Below, piece by piece: positions 27,316 to 61,451 of a stretch of 61,451 bases of DNA. The stretch's first letter is position 1, and each line of letters begins with the position of its first letter. The DNA comes from Bacteroidales bacterium (GTDB lineage Bacteria > Bacteroidota > Bacteroidia > Bacteroidales > Bacteroidaceae), in assembly GCA_030532685.1 (NCBI GenBank), contig JAUNKN010000007.1:1-61451 (forward strand), written 5' to 3'. Below the pieces are notes generated by a model. It saw nothing but the letters and a program-made list of their open reading frames with translations. It searched no databases and had not been told where the DNA came from. The translations under genes and the position numbers were made by a program.

Positions 27316-27518
27316 CGGATAAATTTCCATTTCTCAGCATCTCCTTGCTGCGAGCAGGAAGGAAGCTCTCAAAATTGAGGACAAGAGTTTGACAGGTAGC
27401 GACATGAGGACTTTTTCCGCCTCGACATACTCTTGCGGAATGGCGAAAATATGAGGGAAAAAGTGCCCTGCAATGCCAACGGGCATCTGCTTGAAAACAA
27501 ACAGGGAAGGAAAAAAAA

Positions 27519-27580
27519 CTACGTGGGAAGAAAAAAATCCTACGTGCGTCGTAGAAATTTCTACGTCCCACGTAGGATTT
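27519..27580. repeat. Dispersed ACGTAGG palindrome, copy 1
   Basis: Bases 27535-27580 form a 46-nt near-perfect palindrome (two 23-nt arms, two mismatches; arms begin AAATCCTACGTG and end CACGTAGGATTT; centre TAGAAATTTCTA). The flank CTACGTGGGAAG at 27519-27530 repeats part of it. On the minus strand the palindrome is followed by TTTTTTTC, so it can act as a terminator for the wecA-like gene that ends 92 nt upstream. Relatives lie at 43649, 51205 and 61385. Confidence 0.85.
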
Positions 27581-27671
27581 TAGGGATAGGGTGCCGTGAT
27601 AAGCACCACGCGTGATAGAAAGAGCTGCGGCGGCTTGCTCTGATTTTGTTTCCGTATCTATCGGAAGAAAA

Positions 27672-43282: not shown

Positions 43283-43707
43283 CGCGCGCGCGTACGCGTC
43301 TTCCTTATATGATTGTGTTTTTTGCTTCCACACCTCCACGAGAGATGGCAAATTGCTGTTTTTTAGTGAATTGTGGAGTGGAAGCAAGTGAAAAATACTT
43401 CCATTACTTCCACGATTCTTGCATGTGTCGTTGTGGAAGGGAGTGGAGGAATCGTGGAAGCACAGTGGAGGCAAAATGAGAGACTCTTTTCTATGATTTC
43501 GCTTTGTTTTCAGGATGTTACGATACTCTTTTGCAAAACCTGTGGAAGATGTATGCCCAAAAATAAAAGTATAAGGGGAAAACGCGCGCGCGTGCGCGAG
43601 GAAGAGAAGGTGAGAGGGAGAGATGAAAAAAAGTGGGACGCAGAAAAACCGCGCTGCGAGCTACACAAATCTACGTGGGTCGTAGAATGATGTAGTTCGC
43701 AGCGCGG
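43283..43707. repeat. Composite intergenic repeat element, copy A
   Basis: Parts in order: an alternating purine/pyrimidine tract (43283-43299); TATGATTGTG, a T-run and GCTTCCAC (43308-43332); scattered CTTCCAC / GTGGAAG / GTGGAGG motifs (43327-43460, 43541-43549); a second alternating tract (43582-43598); a purine-rich spacer; and a 59-nt hairpin with 27-nt arms (43649-43675 and 43681-43707; outer 11 bp CCGCGCTGCGA perfect, inner arms 12 of 16). The same order occurs at 50851-51259. The left end resembles the reverse complement of the right end of the other copy. No protein is encoded. Confidence 0.75.
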
Positions 43708-43727
43708 AGTTTGTCAAAGAGCAATCC

Positions 43728-43780: not shown

Positions 43781-44596
43781 TTAGGCTTCGCTACGCTTAA
43801 TCATTTCGCGCATGATTTCGGCCATAAGAGGTTGTACGGCATTGGCCGCTACTTGAACTTCCTCATGGCTCACTTCCACGATTTTGCCTTCCACGCCCAA
43901 GTCGGTGATGATGGAGATACCAAAACACTTGATGCCGCTGTGGCGAGCCACAATGACTTCGGGCACAGTGCTCATACCCACGGCTTGCCCACCGAGGATG
44001 TGATACATCTTGTATTCGGCGGGAGTTTCAAAGGTAGGACCGCTCACGCCTACATAGACACCTTCGACAGTGCGAATGCCCTTTTCCTTGGCAATTTGAC
44101 GAGCCAAATCGAGGAGACCGCGGTCGTAGGCTTCGCTCATGTCAGGGAAACGAGGGCCTGTGGGGAAATTCTTGCCACGGAGGGGATGCTCGGGGAAGAA
44201 ATTGATGTGGTCGGTGATGAGCATGAGGTCGCCTATCTCAAAGTGAGGCTCCATACCGCCTGCGGCATTGGAAACGAAGAGGGTAGTGATGCCCAATTCG
44301 TGCATGACGCGAATGGGGAAGGTTACCTCCTTCATCGAATAGCCCTCGTAGTAGTGAAAGCGGCCTTGCATAGCCAATACGTCCTTGCCACCTAAGCGAC
44401 CGAAGATGAGTGCTCCTGAGTGCCCTTCGACGGTGGAGATGGGGAAGTGGGGAATGTCGCTGTAAGAGAAGCGGTCTACCACTTCAATTTCTTCGGCCAA
44501 ACGTCCAAGACCTGTGCCCAAGATGATGGCGGTGGTGGGACGAAGAGCGGTATGACTTTGGAGCCAAGTGGCGGTTTCTTTGATAAGTTCAAACAT
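43781..44596 (-). CDS. Purine nucleoside phosphorylase (trimeric, PNP/MTAP family)
   Basis: A protein of 271 residues from the ATG at 44596, which overlaps the end of lpxK by 8 nt; a longer frame from 44635 is less likely. It performs phosphorolysis of purine nucleosides. Motifs: ILGTGLGRLAEEI, ISTVEGHSGALIFGRL, MQGRFHYYEGYSM, VSNAAGGMEP, VSGPTFETPAEYKM and AVGMSTVPEVIVARHSG. The base-contacting Asn of human PNP (ITN) is Asp here (SIITDLGVEG), as in MTAP-like enzymes, which may widen base specificity. It is the last gene of the lipoprotein-xth-sppA-lpxK operon. Confidence 0.92.
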   Translation of the reverse strand: MFELIKETATWLQSHTALRPTTAIILGTGLGRLAEEIEVVDRFSYSDIPHFPISTVEGHSGALIFGRLGGKDVLAMQGRFHYYEGYSMKEVTFPIRVMHELGITTLFVSNAAGGMEPHFEIGDLMLITDHINFFPEHPLRGKNFPTGPRFPDMSEAYDRGLLDLARQIAKEKGIRTVEGVYVGVSGPTFETPAEYKMYHILGGQAVGMSTVPEVIVARHSGIKCFGISIITDLGVEGKIVEVSHEEVQVAANAVQPLMAEIMREMIKRSEA

Positions 44597-45581
44597 AGTT
44601 GTATAAGGTTTTGATAAAATGTTCGGATTGTCCAAAAAGGAATTCGGGCTGGATGCTCACACTGTGCAAACGAGCTAAGATCTCGGGGGGGAGTTGGAGT
44701 TCGGCCAGTCGCACGGCGTCCTTATCGGTCGTGAGGATATGCTCGTGTTCCATTGCTCGTGCTTGGATGTGTCGGGCATCGGCATCGGTGAAGCGATGGT
44801 GGTCGGGATAGCACAAATGTTCCAATTCTACACCTTGGATTTGAAGATGCCGTACGAGAGCTTCGGGGTGAGCGATGCCGGTGATGAGAAGGGCACGCTG
44901 CATGGGAGGGAGTGGAGCGTAGGCAATGCGACTGAAGAAGAACGCTTGCTCCTTGTGGGTGCGCAAGTGCTGAGTGAGCTCTTGAGCTTCTTTTTCGGAT
45001 AGATTTTCGGGACAGCGCGTTACGATGACAATTTGTGCTCTACGGGCTCCTTTCATGGGCTCGCGCAGGCGGCCTGCGGGAAGGAGTGAATCCCTATGAT
45101 AGGGGCGTGCATAGTCCGTGAGGACAATGGAGAGCGAGGGTTGCACCCAGCGATGTTGAAAAGCATCGTCCAAAAGGATGAGGTCGAGCTCGGGGTGAGC
45201 TTGGCGCATGAGGCGGATGCCTTGGTTGCGATTTTCGCACACCGCACACTGTAGCTTCTCATGGGGCAAGCGTAGGCGCATTTGCAAAGGCTCATCGCCT
45301 ACTTGACTGGCCGAGCAGTCTGCTTCGACCCAAAGAAATCCGTGGGTGTTGCGCCCATATCCGCGAGAGAGAATGCCCACTTGTTTGCCTGCTTTGAGCA
45401 GCAAGCGGGCGATGAACTCCGTGTGAGGAGTCTTTCCTGTGCCTCCTACCGCTAAGTTGCCTATGCACACGATGGGCAAGTCATGTTGCTCACTGCGCAG
45501 CACTCCGCAATCGAAGAGCCAGTTGCGCAGTGCTACGCCCCAACCAAATAGCCAAGAGAGAGGTAGGAGAAAGTGTTTCAT
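44589..45581 (-). CDS. lpxK: Tetraacyldisaccharide 4'-kinase
   Basis: A protein of 330 residues. It phosphorylates the 4' position of the lipid A precursor at the inner-membrane face. An N-terminal helix (FLLPLSWLFGWGVALRNWLF) anchors it. The P-loop GNLAVGGTGKTPHTEFIARL is followed by LSRGYGRNTHGF, VGDEPLQMRLRL and LDLILLDDAFQHRWV (the DDxxQ motif). Start and stop overlap the neighbours (4 nt with sppA, 8 nt with the phosphorylase), so translation is coupled. It fits with the Kdo genes elsewhere in the window. Confidence 0.95.
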   Translation of the reverse strand: MKHFLLPLSWLFGWGVALRNWLFDCGVLRSEQHDLPIVCIGNLAVGGTGKTPHTEFIARLLLKAGKQVGILSRGYGRNTHGFLWVEADCSASQVGDEPLQMRLRLPHEKLQCAVCENRNQGIRLMRQAHPELDLILLDDAFQHRWVQPSLSIVLTDYARPYHRDSLLPAGRLREPMKGARRAQIVIVTRCPENLSEKEAQELTQHLRTHKEQAFFFSRIAYAPLPPMQRALLITGIAHPEALVRHLQIQGVELEHLCYPDHHRFTDADARHIQARAMEHEHILTTDKDAVRLAELQLPPEILARLHSVSIQPEFLFGQSEHFIKTLYNYV

Positions 45582-48910: not shown

Positions 48911-50704
48911 ATGGAGAAATTTACAAACGTTGCTCCCCTGGCCGATTTCGACTGGGATGCATTTGAAACTGGTGCAGTTGCTGGTACCGCAAGCCGCGAA
49001 AACCAAGAAGCCGCCTACGACAAGACCCTCAACAACGTGCACGAGCACGAAGTGGCCGAGGGCACTGTAACCAACATCACCAAGCGTGAAGTTGTGGTAC
49101 GTATCGGCTCGAAGAGCGATGGTATCATCTCTGTCAACGAGTTCAAGTACAATCCCGAACTCGCCATTGGTGACACCGTTGAAGTGTATGTTGAAAGCCT
49201 CGAAGACAACCGCGGTCAGCTCGTTCTTTCGCACAAGAAGGCTCGTGCTGCCAAGGCTTGGGATCGCATCAACGAAGCACTCGAAAACAAGGAAATCATC
49301 AAGGGCTTCATCAAGTGCCGCACGAAGGGTGGTATGATCGTAGACGTATTTGGTCTCGAAGCCTTCTTGCCTGGTTCGCAAATCGACGTGAAGCCCATTC
49401 GCGACTACGACGTGTTCGTTGGCAAGACGATGGAATTCCAAGTTGTTAAGATCAACCAAGAGTACAAGAACGTTGTGGTAAGCCACAAGGCACTCATCGA
49501 AGCCGAACTCGAAGCTCAAAAGCAAGAAATCATCGGCAAGCTCGAGAAGGGTCAAGTGCTCGAAGGTACTGTCAAGAACATCACCAACTATGGCGTATTT
49601 ATCGACCTTGGCGGTGTGGATGGTCTCGTACACATCACCGACCTCTCTTGGGGCCGCGTGAGCAACCCCCGCGAGGTGGTGCAAGACGAGCAAAAGCTCA
49701 ACGTCGTTATCCTCGATTTCGACGAAGAGAAGAAGCGCATCGCTCTTGGTATCAAGCAGCTCACTCCCCATCCTTGGGATGCCCTCGATGCTAACCTCAA
49801 TGTTGGCGATAAGGTTAAGGGCCGCGTAGTGGTGATGGCCGACTACGGTGCATTCGTAGAAGTAGCTCCTGGTGTTGAAGGTCTCATCCACGTGAGCGAA
49901 ATGTCTTGGAGCCAGCACCTCCGTTCTGCTCAAGACTTCCTCAAGGTAGGCGACGAGGTAGAAGCCGTGATTCTCACGCTCGACCGTGCCGACCGCAAGA
50001 TGAGCCTCGGTGTGAAGCAACTCAAGGCCGATCCTTGGGCTGACATCGAAGAGAAGTACCCCGTAGGTTCTCAGCACAACGCTCGCGTTCGCAACTTCAC
50101 CAACTTTGGTGTATTTGTAGAACTCGAGGAAGGTGTGGATGGTCTCATTCACATCTCAGACCTCTCTTGGACCAAGAAGGTGAAGCACCCCAGCGAGTTC
50201 ACGCAAATTGGTGCTCAAATCGACGTTAAGGTGCTCGAGATCGACAAGGAAAACCGTCGTCTCTCTCTCGGTCACAAGCAACTCGAAGAGAACCCCTGGA
50301 GCCAATACGAAGCTGAATTCACCGAAGGTTCTGTACACCAAGGTGTCATCAGCGAACTCACCGACAAGGGCGCTGTGATCACGCTCGAACATGGTGTAGA
50401 AGGTTTCGCTACTCCTAAGCACCTCGTGAAGCAAGATGGCTCTAAGGCTCAACAGGGCGAAACCATCGAAGTGAAGGTGCTCGAATTCAACAAGGATAGC
50501 AAGCGCATCTTCGTTTCGCACACTCGCATCTTCGACGAGAATGCAGGTGGTAAGGAAGGCCGTGGCGAGAAGAAGGCAGGCCGTCGTGCAGCTGCTCCCC
50601 GCAAGGAGGAAACAGTGAATATCCAAAATCAGGCTGCTGCTACTACTCTCGGCGACAACGATGCTCTCGCTGCTCTTAAGGCAATGATGGAGCAAGGCAA
50701 ATAA
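48911..50704 (+). CDS. rpsA: 30S ribosomal protein S1
   Basis: A protein of 597 residues with six S1 (OB-fold) repeats. Two N-terminal repeats (from ~35 and ~120) bind the ribosome; four more follow (from ~205, 290, 377 and 465), with the repeated pattern GxVxxxxxxGxFVxLxxGVxGLIHxSxLSW: for example VKNITNYGVFIDLGGVDGLV, VVMADYGAFVEVAPGVEGLI and VRNFTNFGVFVELEEGVDGL. A basic, disordered tail (GRGEKKAGRRAAAPRKEE) follows. The codon choice looks highly expressed. A strong terminator follows, so the gene is monocistronic. Confidence 0.97.
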   Translation: MEKFTNVAPLADFDWDAFETGAVAGTASRENQEAAYDKTLNNVHEHEVAEGTVTNITKREVVVRIGSKSDGIISVNEFKYNPELAIGDTVEVYVESLEDNRGQLVLSHKKARAAKAWDRINEALENKEIIKGFIKCRTKGGMIVDVFGLEAFLPGSQIDVKPIRDYDVFVGKTMEFQVVKINQEYKNVVVSHKALIEAELEAQKQEIIGKLEKGQVLEGTVKNITNYGVFIDLGGVDGLVHITDLSWGRVSNPREVVQDEQKLNVVILDFDEEKKRIALGIKQLTPHPWDALDANLNVGDKVKGRVVVMADYGAFVEVAPGVEGLIHVSEMSWSQHLRSAQDFLKVGDEVEAVILTLDRADRKMSLGVKQLKADPWADIEEKYPVGSQHNARVRNFTNFGVFVELEEGVDGLIHISDLSWTKKVKHPSEFTQIGAQIDVKVLEIDKENRRLSLGHKQLEENPWSQYEAEFTEGSVHQGVISELTDKGAVITLEHGVEGFATPKHLVKQDGSKAQQGETIEVKVLEFNKDSKRIFVSHTRIFDENAGGKEGRGEKKAGRRAAAPRKEETVNIQNQAAATTLGDNDALAALKAMMEQGK

Positions 50705-50850: not shown

Positions 50851-51259
50851 TACGCGCGCGCGTACTCTACATTGGTTCTGTTTTTTACTTCCATTGCTTC
50901 CACAGAGATTGCTAAAACTTTGAAAAACAAAGACTTGCCTTTGTAGGTGGAAGAGAGGAAAGGGTATTTGTTGTCTTCCATTCTTTCTATATCTCGATAG
51001 AGAGGAAGAGGGAGGAGTGTGGAAGCAATCAGTAGTTTGCTTCCACTGTTTAAATTCCAGTAAAACAGCATTTTATCCTGTCTTGTGGAAGGCGTGGAAG
51101 TAAAAAACACAAAATCATAGGGGGCGCGTGCATGCGTACGCGCGTAACAAGGAAGAAGGGAGTAAAAGAAGAACGCAAAAAAGAACTTGGGAGAGAGAAA
51201 AATAAAACTCGCAGCGCGGATATTTTACGTGGGACGTAGGATTTTCGCGCTGCGAGTTT
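50851..51259. repeat. Composite intergenic repeat element, copy B
   Basis: Parts in order: alternating tract TACGCGCGCGCGTAC (50851-50865); TTCTG, a T-run and ACTTCCATTGCTTCCAC (50876-50903); internal GTGGAAG/CTTCCAC motifs; GTGGAAG, an A-run and CACAAAATCATAG (51094-51120); a 23-nt alternating tract (51124-51146); a purine-rich spacer; and a 55-nt palindrome (51205-51218 and 51246-51259 are perfect 14-nt arms AAACTCGCAGCGCG / CGCGCTGCGAGTTT; the core contains ACGTGGGACGTAGGATTTT). The right T-run/CTTCCAC end is the inverted form of the left end, so the inner ~300 nt has terminal inverted repeats. Confidence 0.75.
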
Positions 51260-51410: not shown

Positions 51411-51709
51411 CGCAGACTATGTATCAAATTCGATGCGTAACTTAAAAGGAAGGCTCAAGGAAGGCTCGATTTCCTATTTTATACTTTGGGAAAAGGTCTA
51501 TCGTGAAAGTAGCTTTTCTCGTGAGGTATGCAGAGTAGCACTTGTCTTTCAAAAGCGAGATTTATGTCCGATTGAATAGCAAGCGAGTTTCACTTCGACA
51601 AAACGGATCGGAGAATCTCTCGTGACTTCAATCGTTGGCTCTTTTGAGCTTTGTTCTTTCAGTTGAAAATAGTTCTCAAATTTCTATATCAAACGATAGC
51701 TTCATACCG

Positions 51710-54307
51710 ATGAAACTCAAGTACCTTTTGGTCGCACTCTGTGCTTTTTCGTATTCTTGGAGCAGTCAAGCTGCCCCTGTGAGCAAAGCGAAAGCCATGC
51801 AATTGGCTTCCCGCTATGTACGCTTGTCCTCTAACAAGAAACTGCATCCTGCTCAGTTCAAAGCCGCTCCTGGTGCAACTCCTGCCTACTACATCTTTAA
51901 CGACAAGGAGCAGAAAGGCTTTGTTATCGTTTCGGGCGACGACCGAACCGCCCCGATTTTGGGGTATGCTTCTGCTGGGCATCTCAACTTGAACCAACTG
52001 CCCGAACAGTTGCTCACATTGCTGGCTACTCATACCGACCAGCTGGAAAAGACGAAAGCGATGCCTTTCGCGCCCGGTCTTCCCACGCCTACGCCCAAAC
52101 CCAACCCTAAGGCAGTGAAAGGACCTTTGCTTCGTTCGTATTGGAACCAGAATGCCCCTTACAACAATTTGACTCCTCTCATTGGAAAGGAGCGCACAGT
52201 GACAGGCTGTGTAGGTACGGCCATGGCGCAACTCATGTACTACCACAAGTGGCCACTTCGAGGAAAAGGCTCGCACAGCTATTCGGCCAATGTCGGGCAT
52301 CTTTCGGTCAATTTTGCCGAATCGGTCTATGACTGGGCAAACATGCTCCCCAGGTATGTATATAGCGAGTCTGATGGGTTAGACCCTCGGCCTCGTCGTC
52401 CGCTTTGGAACGATGTGGAGGCGCAAGCTGTGGCCAAACTGATGCTCGATGCAGGGGTTGCCATAGGCACAAGATATGCGTTGAGCGATGTAGGGAGTGG
52501 TTCCAATGTGGGTGCTGCCGCAAAAGCACTGACCGACAATTTTGGCTATCATACCCAAACGCTCTATCGTAACAACACGCCTACTCATGAATTCTTGACG
52601 GCAATTAAACAGGAACTTGATGCCAGCAATCCTATACTGATGGTAGGCTCGCACGAAACCTCGGGACATGCTTGGGTGATAGATGGTTATGATGAAAATG
52701 GCTATTTACATGTCAATTGGGGCTGGGGAGGAATGAGCAACGGCTATTTTGCCCTCAGTTTCATGAGTCCTGACGATGCCGGCATTGGTGGCTTTGTAGG
52801 TGGTTACAACCAAGGGCAGGTGATAGTCCTTGCACATCCTAACAAAGAAGGAACAGAAGGTTTTGGCAATGAAACAAGCGTGTGTGCTTACCTTCAGCCC
52901 AATGCAGGGCTTCGATTTGAGACCGCAACGACCGATGTCGAGCAACGCAAGTTGAGCATTAAGGTGACACGGCTCGGAAAAAGGAAAGACCCTTCCTACA
53001 AAGCAAAAGTCGCGCTGGCCTTGCGCAATGAGCGAGGAGAGCAGTTGCACATTTTTGAGCACACGGACAATCTTGAAGGAAAGGAGCTCAATGCGGTGTA
53101 CAATGATTTCACGATGAGCCTTTCGCTTCCTGTGCTTGCCGATGGAGAGTACACATTGCACACCTTGTGCAAGTCTGCTCAACAGCCCGAAGATAAATGG
53201 CGAGTTGCAGGCAAAGACCTTCCTCTTCGCTTTTCGGTACATGCCGGAAAAGTGCTGCTTCCTGCTGAAGCACATCAAAAAGGAGTCGCTTTGAGTTTGC
53301 TGGCACCCCCTCAACAGCTCACTCCACTCTGGAAAGGCGAAGCGACGAGCCTCCAGCTTTCCATTGCCAACCCTACTCCCTATGATACAGAATTTGGCAA
53401 CATTGTGTTGCGCCTGAAACGAAACGGAGAGAGCAAGGAAGTTGTAGTGACACAATTTCGTTTCCACGATCACAGCCGCTACGATGGCATCGTTTCCCTC
53501 AGCTCGGCACTTCCTAATCCTTTGGAGGTGGGCGTCTATGACGTCGAATTCCTGTTTCGCCGCACGGGAGTGGAGCATGTCATAGCCAACCCTTTTGCGC
53601 CGTGTCAAGTAGAAGTACTCGAGAGTGCAGGCAAACCTATCCTTACCTTGGCGCAGGACTATCAGAGTCGAAATGGAACCAGCCGCAGCGTCAGCTTCAA
53701 GCAAGGAGAATACGACTGGATGGGCGAACGTGTAGCGTTGAAAAAACTCAATCCACAAGGACTTACCTTACACAGCATTCTTTACAATAAGAGCGATGTT
53801 CTCTTCAATGGCAAGCTGGCTTTTGCACTTGTTCATCCACAAACTGGAGCAAGATATGCCTTGGAAACCAAAGAGAATGCCGAAGTTCGTCCTCAAGCAT
53901 TAAGCGACCTCGTAGTCGAACTGTCTCGTCAACTTCTGGAGCAACTTCCCAAAAATGAACGACTCGAATTGCGTATCTTTGCGACCATAGATGGTGTGGA
54001 GCGCGAGGTATGGGGCAATGGCGTATATCGTCGTGCACTCGTATTGAGCGATGCCGACGACTCTCCCGTGACACATATTTCTACCCTCCACCAAGAGGTG
54101 GTTTCGCTACACGTTGGTGCCCAGCAGCTCGTGCTGCGTGGGGTGCGTAAGGGCGAACGAGTGCAAATTGTTGCGCTGACAGGAAAAGTGCTGTATCAAA
54201 CAGCGGTCGCAACACCTTCAGAATGGAGTTTGCCTATTGCTGGGCTACCTGCAGGAAGCTATGTGCTGCGAGTAGGAACGTATGCTTGCAAGTTCTTCGT
54301 CCCTTAG
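51710..54307 (+). CDS. Secreted C10-family cysteine protease (streptopain/interpain-like) with T9SS sorting domain
   Basis: A protein of 865 residues from ATG 51710 (MKLKYLLVALCAFSYSWSSQ, signal cleavage near QAAP); the frame is open from 51635, but that start lacks a signal peptide. The prodomain is at ~20-130 (AKAMQLASRYVRLS, GFVIVSGDDRTAPILGY). In the catalytic domain (~140-385), Cys167 lies in TVTGCVGTAMAQLMYYHKWP and His320 in GHAWVIDGYDENGYLHVNWG. Two or more beta-sandwich modules follow. The final ~80 residues (VQIVALTGKVLYQT, LPAGSYVLRVGTYACKFFVP) are a type A T9SS sorting domain. The architecture matches interpain A-like enzymes of Prevotella. Confidence 0.92.
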   Translation: MKLKYLLVALCAFSYSWSSQAAPVSKAKAMQLASRYVRLSSNKKLHPAQFKAAPGATPAYYIFNDKEQKGFVIVSGDDRTAPILGYASAGHLNLNQLPEQLLTLLATHTDQLEKTKAMPFAPGLPTPTPKPNPKAVKGPLLRSYWNQNAPYNNLTPLIGKERTVTGCVGTAMAQLMYYHKWPLRGKGSHSYSANVGHLSVNFAESVYDWANMLPRYVYSESDGLDPRPRRPLWNDVEAQAVAKLMLDAGVAIGTRYALSDVGSGSNVGAAAKALTDNFGYHTQTLYRNNTPTHEFLTAIKQELDASNPILMVGSHETSGHAWVIDGYDENGYLHVNWGWGGMSNGYFALSFMSPDDAGIGGFVGGYNQGQVIVLAHPNKEGTEGFGNETSVCAYLQPNAGLRFETATTDVEQRKLSIKVTRLGKRKDPSYKAKVALALRNERGEQLHIFEHTDNLEGKELNAVYNDFTMSLSLPVLADGEYTLHTLCKSAQQPEDKWRVAGKDLPLRFSVHAGKVLLPAEAHQKGVALSLLAPPQQLTPLWKGEATSLQLSIANPTPYDTEFGNIVLRLKRNGESKEVVVTQFRFHDHSRYDGIVSLSSALPNPLEVGVYDVEFLFRRTGVEHVIANPFAPCQVEVLESAGKPILTLAQDYQSRNGTSRSVSFKQGEYDWMGERVALKKLNPQGLTLHSILYNKSDVLFNGKLAFALVHPQTGARYALETKENAEVRPQALSDLVVELSRQLLEQLPKNERLELRIFATIDGVEREVWGNGVYRRALVLSDADDSPVTHISTLHQEVVSLHVGAQQLVLRGVRKGERVQIVALTGKVLYQTAVATPSEWSLPIAGLPAGSYVLRVGTYACKFFVP

Positions 54308-61235: not shown

Positions 61236-61251
61236 AATGCACGCGCGCGTG
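61236..61251. repeat. Alternating C/G tract upstream of the beta-barrel gene
   Basis: ATGCACGCGCGCGTGG contains the palindrome CACGCGCGCGTG. It resembles the alternating tracts that bound the composite elements at 43.3 and 50.9 kb and, like them, lies within a few hundred nt of an ACGTAGG repeat (61385). Confidence 0.5.
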
Positions 61252-61300: not shown

Positions 61301-61384
61301 CTTCGTTTTTTGTGTCGTGCTTGGCTCAAGTAGCCTTGGGCTTGTCGTGGCGGGAAAATGCAGGTTGCGCAGTTGGATTTTCTG

Positions 61385-61451
61385 CTTCCCACGTAAAAAA
61401 TCCTACGTCCCACGCAGATTTTTTTTCTTCCCACGTAGAAAATCCTACGTC
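61385..61451. repeat. Tandem ACGTAGG repeat, copy 4 (runs off the window)
   Basis: A 25-nt unit beginning CTTCCCACGTA and ending AAAATCCTACGTC occurs at 61385-61409 and 61427-61451 with one mismatch, 42 nt apart. The spacer has CCACGCAG and a T8 run. Its reverse complement aligns with the repeat at 27519-27580, including the T/A tract and CTTCCCACGTAG flank, so it is the same family in the opposite orientation. Confidence 0.75.

Follow-up and report, generated by a model that had tools for sequence, protein, structure and literature searches.

What is a stretch of 425 nt that encodes no protein, consists of simple modules set in a row, and comes back 7.5 kb further on? This question is raised by positions 43283-43707 of a contig from a Bacteroidales bacterium (GenBank assembly GCA_030532685.1, contig JAUNKN010000007.1). 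The entire contig, 61,451 nucleotides long, is the window analysed here; it is contig 24 of a draft genome (G000) of 1,867,492 bases in 54 contigs, which is 85.5% complete. A preliminary description of the window had taken the stretch for a composite non-coding repeat with ordered modules and had proposed three natures for it: a MITE-like mobile element, a structured RNA or a DNA-architecture element. Our analysis bears out the composite repeat, as all modules are present in this copy (A) and their order is seen again in a second copy (B) at 50851-51259. Among the three natures, a DNA-architecture element would fit best. The form of it that we prefer, at a chance we put at about even, is a docking site maintained by the host, where a putative protein X and an IHF-type protein would bend the DNA, pair the two arms of the element and perhaps anchor chromosome loops.

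Copies and copy number

Each arm of an element carries 7-nt words, which we call X words. The features of the two copies in the window are given in Table 1. Copy A is somewhat decayed, a point that we count against the docking site; its right arm has one of the two words, and the IHF-like candidates in its right half all show 2 mismatches. The arms of its hairpin are 32 nt long and 81% complementary, and the hairpin sequence also occurs alone at other places. Genes for a phosphorylase (43781-44635) and an S1-domain protein (48911-50704) lie nearby in the window, and dnaN and a sigma-70 factor gene are also among the genes that neighbour elements. Past copy B lies a gene for a C10-family peptidase with a Spi inhibitor-type propeptide (window 51635-54307).

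Table 1. Features of copies A and B, in positions of the window
Feature	Position	Strand	Remark
Copy A, core from left to right C/G tract	43283..43598	.	own-genome search and arm pairing; right arm decayed
Copy A, left alternating C/G tract	43283..43299	.	Z-forming type
Copy A, left arm	43318..43339	+	T-run and two direct X words
Copy A, T-run	43318-43325	+	
Copy A, left X words	43325-43331, 43333-43339	+	CTTCCAC, CCTCCAC
Copy A, IHF-like site	43349..43361	.	2 mismatches; 9 bp past arm, the register of the family
Copy A, interior X words	43378..43471	.	GTGGARG at 43378, 43433, 43443, 43454, 43465; CTTCCAY at 43398, 43407
Copy A, right-arm X word	43542..43548	-	sole intact one of two
Copy A, right alternating C/G tract	43582..43598	.	
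Copy A, purine-rich spacer	43599..43643	+	
Copy A, one-sided accessory hairpin	43644..43712	.	CCGCGCTGCGAGC..CTACGTGGGTCGTAG..GCAGCGCGG
Copy B, core	50851..51146	.	better preserved than copy A
Copy B, left alternating C/G tract	50851..50865	.	
Copy B, left arm	50881..50903	+	T-run, CTTCCAT 50888, CTTCCAC 50897 (9-bp spacing)
Copy B, left IHF-like site	50913..50925	.	1 mismatch
Copy B, interior X words	50947..51046		50947 (-), 50975 (+), 51019 (-), 51040 (+)
Copy B, right IHF-like site	51063..51075	.	2 mismatches; mirror register
Copy B, right arm	51085..51107	-	X words 51085 and 51094, A-run
Copy B, right alternating C/G tract	51124..51146	.	read by eye
Copy B, purine-rich spacer	51147..51204	+	
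Copy B, accessory hairpin	51205..51259	.	

A nucleotide search of G000 with the 425-nt sequence gave 23 matches, copy A itself counted and several covering the hairpin only. This indicates a family beyond the two loci. Furthermore, a 21-nt arm pattern with at most 3 mismatches has 74 sites in G000 and its reversed form has none, which rules out chance low complexity. A profile search with R1, a sequence-only model built from 41 arms, gave 128 matches at E<=1. When nhmmer arm matches were paired by script with a floor of 7 bits, 49 two-armed copies were resolved within 58 stretches of G000. The element is about 300 bp in size, lies between genes and is present in about 50 copies. According to a crude ORF script, 45 of the 49 copies have no overlap of more than 30 nt with a called ORF and four overlap one, and none of 33 copies in three other genomes has such an overlap.

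Anatomy of the element

Read from the outside inward, a half-element consists of a C/G tract of alternating purine and pyrimidine, about 15 nt (often with CCCTATA) and a T-run ending in GC or AC. In G000 the T-run is followed by two direct X words (CYTCCAY), mostly 9 bp apart, and next inward stands an IHF-like site, set off from this pair by about 9 nt, and then a reversed X word at +35 to +38 and a forward one at about +58. The centre is variable, and the second half mirrors the first. GC-rich alternating runs 10 nt or longer were found at 83 of 98 arms in G000 and in 6 of 177 control windows, although this frequency is partly built in because the arm model contains the C/G tract. Such a run is present at 40 of 40 arms in G003 and G007 and at 25 of 26 in G010, three other genomes of the genus. 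The G000 copies contain 195 interior X words (shuffle mean 4.4); the reversed word is found 35-38 nt past the arm in 73 of 98 halves, and the forward word peaks at 57-59 nt, with lesser groups near 68, 79 and 90. In G003 and G007, as far as their copies were read, there are no interior X words, and we count this against the docking site.

The consensus of IHF is WATCAANNNNTTR. With at most 1 mismatch, it occurs just inside 43 of 98 arms in G000, mostly in a single register, compared with 5.7 in shuffled sequences and 2.2 in flanks. At the same threshold it was found at 7 of 25 arms in G010 (0.7 shuffled), 7 of 11 in G011 and 3 of 6 in G026, and pooling 20 arms of G011, G026, G051 and G017 gave 10 sites versus 1.0 shuffled. 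Two counts argue against the docking site: none of three arms in G051 and G017 has the site, and it is weak in G003 and G007 (6 of 40 arms, 2.6 shuffled).

The preliminary description had included the hairpin among the ordered modules. The order of the core stands, and the hairpin as a fixed part does not. Counted with hand-chosen words, a palindrome array within 230 bp on one side accompanies only 18 of the 49 copies in G000 (23 of 815 background windows), 11 of 13 in G010 (0 of 156), 6 of 10 in G003 (0 of 110) and 3 of 10 in G007 (0 of 111); in none of these 82 copies are both sides flanked. On reading, the accessory arrays hold CTAC/GTAG (G000, G010) or CGTC (G003), and no such tagged palindrome was seen in the core. 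Arrays of the CTACGTGGGACGTAG type also stand at 27513-27581 and 61353-61451 of the window with no core element alongside. The second of them reaches the end of the contig, contigs C1 and C23 likewise end near such repeats, and a lone C/G tract lies near it at 61237-61251. At the start of the contig (window 1-76) there is a strong inverted repeat with 24-nt arms, 96% complementary, whose sequence is unlike the element.

Helical phasing and the two halves

The inner distances between the arms in G000 are not continuous but cluster at 155-158, 164-170, 176-180, 186-190, 200-202, 207-210 and 240-241 bp. A Rayleigh test of the 49 distances, scanned over 5-20 bp, gave a best period of 10.40 bp (R 0.714, reached by none of 4000 uniform nulls). 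Restricting the set to copies whose two arms both score 20 bits or more (n = 33) gave R 0.801 at 10.35 bp, and unique lengths only (n = 23) gave R 0.596 at 10.5 bp (3 of 4000 nulls). One turn of B-DNA is 10.4 bp. The phasing in G000 points to duplex DNA and a protein. G007 also peaks at 10.40 bp (R 0.698, 41 pairs). Two results are counted against the docking site: G003, its set of lengths taken without the unpaired arm at 1464844, peaks at 11.30 bp (R 0.732; 0.617 at 10.35 bp; 42 pairs), and among distances below 260 bp the peak lies at 11.70 bp in G003 and G007 alike. The periods in these two genomes are less informative because a single length class near 188 dominates both. G010, with 13 pairs, gave a best period of 5.15 bp, which is also listed against the docking site but says little.

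These results bear on the proposal of a structured RNA, or of a transcribed hairpin that would act as a regulator, terminator or attenuator. Single-strand folding is strong in both copies (z -7.74 in A and -9.72 in B), but the mirror symmetry alone would yield this. Over the 16 positions of the X-word pair, agreement between the left and right ends of a G000 copy is close to independence (1986 of 5000 permutations as high). A weak excess of left-right likeness, which like the folding speaks for RNA, exists outside the words: in the spacer from tract to T-run, 25 of 5000 permutations reached it (177 of 5000 when only the 38 better copies are used), and in tract plus spacer, 63 of 5000 (699 of 5000 for those 38). 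In G003 and G007, on the other hand, the halves of one copy mostly resemble each other less than permuted halves do, which argues against an RNA hairpin and suggests two differing types of end per element. The quantisation of lengths at 10.4 bp also counts against RNA, Rfam at the gathering score has no match in the window, and the flanking genes of the 49 G000 copies follow no rule of orientation (29 tandem, 10 divergent, 4 convergent, 6 unassigned). Therefore, despite the folding, the structured RNA was set aside for its lack of co-variation between X words and for the quantisation, and we consider it very improbable. A terminator or promoter element was rejected on the orientation of the genes, with the 6 of 49 unassigned. 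The element of locus L108 (from about 3231 in G000:C46) stands upstream of an ORF resembling type II Cas9 by eye.

Placement along the chromosome

There are 34 neighbour intervals among 55 centres in G000, which were entered by hand and include single-arm copies. None is below 5.6 kb, whereas uniform placement, with intergenic limits ignored, gives a mean of 10.2 intervals below 5 kb (0 of 5000 nulls as few). Intervals of 7.5-11.2 kb make up 19 of the 34 (null mean 4.6; 0 of 5000 nulls as many). The coefficient of variation of all 34 is 0.71 (48 of 5000 nulls), and on contig 50, which has 13 copies, it is 0.18 (0 of 20000 nulls). Weak single matches (E 0.1-1) on C34, C35, C36, C38, C42 (88.9 kb) and C44 (0.7 kb) were omitted from this set; the match on C42, if real, would produce one interval slightly below 5 kb. 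The smallest interval in G003 is 11.5 kb (0 of 5000 nulls).

Such spacing would also be expected of a non-autonomous mobile element, a MITE- or REPIN-like population with target immunity. On this view, a transposase or recombinase provided in trans would take the part of X and bind the arms; target immunity would give the regular spacing, with which the 5.6 kb or more between centres agrees, and a demand of the synaptic complex on loop size would give the phasing. We regard this explanation as rather unlikely, though it is the most serious rival. In G003, GC skew over 40 samples puts the inferred origin at about 1.7-1.8 Mb and the terminus at about 0.28 Mb. The finding that 34 of 43 copies lie within 1.06-2.44 Mb, roughly the origin half, argues against a mobile element. 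Between about 2.20 and 2.55 Mb of G003:C6 the sign of the skew is unexpected, as with an inversion, a large insert or an assembly error, and no arm site is listed there save at 2.55 Mb.

Relatives and the change of the word

With at most 1 mismatch, the word of G000 is absent outside G000 among 58 genomes of the genus. The layout is found with a differing word, and in high copy, in G003, G007, G010 and G011 by the models R1 and R2. R2 at E<=0.001 has at least 82 matches in G000, 86 in G003, 95 in G007, 93 in G010 and 67 in G011. At this threshold it matched eight of the 58 genomes, only these five in number. Patchiness of this kind does not suit a general essential system and was counted against the docking site, although some relatives may carry words that R2 misses. 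It is, together with the high copy number and the intergenic position, a trait expected of mobile elements.

The words themselves are as follows. G010 has CCTTCAC twice, G003 and G007 have the pair CTTTCAC-AA-CCTTCAC, and G011 has CTTTCAC-TG-CCTTCGC. Usually one end per G011 locus matches the model, so the other end deviates. A single exact 22-mer accounts for 78 of 85 arm sites in G003, and one for 71 of 89 in G007. Weak matches led to CAATCAC twice in six of seven loci in G026 (the seventh, L290, has the C/G tract and no words), and single loci have GCTTCAC twice in G051 and CTGTCAC twice in G017. These loci, read at one end, show tract, T-run, two words, spacer and reversed word. In L181 of G017 (about 1480-1860) two elements stand a few hundred bases apart, with the words CTGTCAC and CTGCCAT. 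A pattern without any word, a C/G tract and then a T-run, exceeds its reversed control in all five carriers, and also in G012 (43 versus 2), G017 (24 versus 3) and G026 (17 versus 4), where overlapping matches are counted more than once. G012, which has no match to either arm model, is probably a further carrier with another word. Beyond the 43 counted copies, G003:C6 has an arm-like series of C/G tract, spacer and T-run at about 1402721, possibly a decayed copy.

Outside the genus, no carrier was found by R2 at E<=1e-4: 5 of 399 family genomes (30 genera) matched, all within the genus, in a search with strict filters in which 13 candidates per genome were scored. The exact arm pattern of G000 matched its own genome and one stray among 301 family genomes. 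Among 84,980 species genomes, a collection that may omit near relatives of the window, this exact word gave 2 matches, both judged unrelated on reading. A phage origin was rejected, as two exact arm patterns had no match in viral contigs.

Elements of G000 and G010 may share positions. When 20 loci were examined, 4 of 13 two-armed G010 copies had a flanking gene in common with a G000 element at 63% identity or more, and three of the four are consistent in orientation, as read. About one is expected by chance on a rough estimate, and this is only a hint.

Constraint on the arms

G003 and G007 allow the same loci to be compared between two species. In a sample of 32 of 43 G003 copies and 32 of about 45 G007 copies, 17 of the 32 G003 loci have a G007 counterpart whose flanking DNA matches in a consistent orientation; nine match on both flanks and eight rest on one flank only, and the G007 locus L150 was matched twice, by L137 and L140 of G003. 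The mean identity over the 17 loci is 98.8% in the arms, a value conditional on both arms having at most 4 mismatches to the consensus so that decayed arms are missed, 78% in the tracts, 60% in the interior and 52% in the non-coding flank. Randomly paired interiors align at 28%. The lengths differ by 0-2 bp at 12 of the 17 loci and by 20 or 21 bp at two; the remaining three differ by 65, 214 and 227 bp, and the two above 200 bp may not be true counterparts. Within these limits, which we also list against the docking site, the arms and the distance between them appear to be conserved while the remainder decays. The matched loci, with arms kept (conditional on the consensus) and interiors decayed, speak against a mobile element. 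In G003 and G007 (L135-L154, L244-L283) the elements are mostly polar, with spacers of the TACAG type versus the CCCTGC/CCCTAG type, and one half often contains TTTCGGACA..TTAACA or GTAWTAGGAAC..GTTC.

Duplication and possible transposition or recombination

Some elements are recent duplicates. The pairs L137/L140, L160/L163, L161/L167 and L136/L143 have the core and about 120-195 bp on one side in common. In three aligned within-species pairs the palindrome array sits in the copied flank, and the opposite edge coincides with the outer end of a C/G tract. The joint duplication of element and one-sided array, sharply bounded on the outside at the tract (L137/L140, L160/L163, L161/L167), favours a mobile element, for which copying of the whole unit is expected, and counts against the docking site. 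The two types of end in G003 and G007 elements are also as transposons can have them. RAYT/REP populations show species-specific words, according to the parts of the source available to us (PMC2817692), as the words do here. However, the X words at the two ends of one G000 copy are no more alike than across copies, by the permutations given above. Furthermore, the 85 arm sites of G003 make up 42 pairs and one arm without a partner; every pair spans less than 700 bp, so this nearly complete chromosome yielded no parent that bears a gene. No clear target-site duplication was seen by eye in the three paralogue alignments, in which the array side has no defined end.

The suggestion of a MITE-like element thus holds in one part: element and array are copied as a unit. 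It fails in others, since the ends within a copy do not match (tract plus spacer in G003 and G007 are less alike than permuted), G003 has no autonomous parent with the same ends, and many loci are common to two species. A classical MITE was rejected on the ends and the parent. A mobile origin of the elements is nevertheless likely, even if the sites are now maintained by the host.

Tyrosine recombination offers another reading, in which the elements would be attachment-like sites and segments between copies would be inverted or moved. Paired direct words beside IHF-like sites resemble arm-type sites, and two types of end fit att sites. The neighbouring duplicates L137/L140 (G003), L160/L163 and L161/L167 (G010) are inverted, 11-16 kb apart, with the arrays facing inward, and the gene order of L137/L140 versus L150 of G007 fits an inversion. 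Ordinary homologous recombination, however, accounts for the L137/L140 inversion as well. In addition, an unsystematic look recognised no common core or crossover site among the copies, and the interiors of matched G003 and G007 loci diverge. We hold the recombinase reading to be quite improbable.

Comparison with known systems

In the attP intasomes of lambda and CTnDOT, tandem arm-type sites adjoin IHF bends. The elements differ in that dozens of copies occur per chromosome, no core was recognised and no attached integrase was seen. The sites of MatP (matS), SlmA and Noc number in the tens, are dispersed and are distributed unevenly from origin to terminus, but each is a single short palindrome, whereas the element combines multiple sites in helical phase. 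Correia elements of Neisseria are short intergenic repeats with inverted ends and an IHF site. In these, the terminal repeats are near-identical and TA is duplicated at the target; the ends of the present elements are unmatched and their boundaries fuzzy.

A further likeness is to BIME-1/RIB of E. coli, which are dispersed intergenic REP pairs with inverted arms around an IHF site, and for which a role in chromosome organisation was suggested in the parts of the source available (PMC2817692). An IHF-like site between inverted arms is found here too, by consensus only, in the 43 of 98 G000 halves. The arms of BIME-1/RIB are REP palindromes, whereas ours are paired direct 7-mers, and the accessible parts of that paper make no mention of C/G tracts, a fixed multi-site register or 10-kb spacing (PMC2817692). 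In REPIN/RAYT systems, repeat words are kept as populations within a genome (PMC8049555, PMC3733652), and a REP/REPIN is a palindrome of 20-40 nt tagged GTAG or CGTC (PMC3733652), as far as the portions at hand of these papers state. REPINs are thus short palindromes, whereas the present elements are units of about 300 bp whose words do not co-vary as pairs. BrickBuilt (MITE239) of Porphyromonas gingivalis is likewise an intergenic composite repeat of Bacteroidales, built of tandem modules; according to the sections consulted, its terminal repeats are 12 nt long and resemble those of IS5-family elements, its tandem bricks measure 23 nt, one strain has 19 copies, and target-site duplications occur in some cases (PMC4596501). 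None of the terminal repeats listed in those sections matches our arms by eye (PMC4596501). The preliminary description knew of no family with this layout, and none was found in Rfam for the window or in the literature searched, which was accessible in part.

Model and implications

The preferred docking site rests on what the sequences show within the limits given above: the order of modules with its interior words and IHF-like sites, the number of copies, the helical quantisation, the spacing, the constrained arms at matched loci, the uniform 22-mer of G003 and a word that changes under a constant layout. From these we infer protein X, binding by IHF or HU, formation of Z-DNA, pairing of arms and anchoring of the chromosome. 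In this model, the postulated X would bind sequence-specifically to the pair of direct words in either arm, and in most carriers to interior words too. Just inward of each arm, at a fixed site, an IHF/HU-type protein would bend the DNA, and this bending would join the two arms, kept on the same helical face. The outer alternating C/G tracts would absorb or fix negative supercoiling. The 45-55 intergenic sites in a genome, most of them separated by 6-12 kb or more, would anchor loops or topological domains, and the set of sites and protein X would change together from species to species.

A stronger statement is more tentative, and we think it somewhat less probable than its negation: that about 50 phased two-armed sites bound supercoiled loops roughly every 10 kb, with the word replaced genome-wide as the binding protein evolves. 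If true, bacteria would offer an instance in which an architectural protein and its sites throughout the genome co-evolve rapidly. If the function turns out to be REP/RIB-like, the elements would belong with that known kind of repeat, and if they are mobile elements, they would still be of an unusual type, phased, spaced and with arms apparently under selection. Whether bacterial chromosomes have loop or domain boundaries defined by sequence is a long-standing question. For it, the elements are a countable, spaced and clearly bounded set of candidates in several related species, and the natural recoding of the recognition word could reveal the partner protein.
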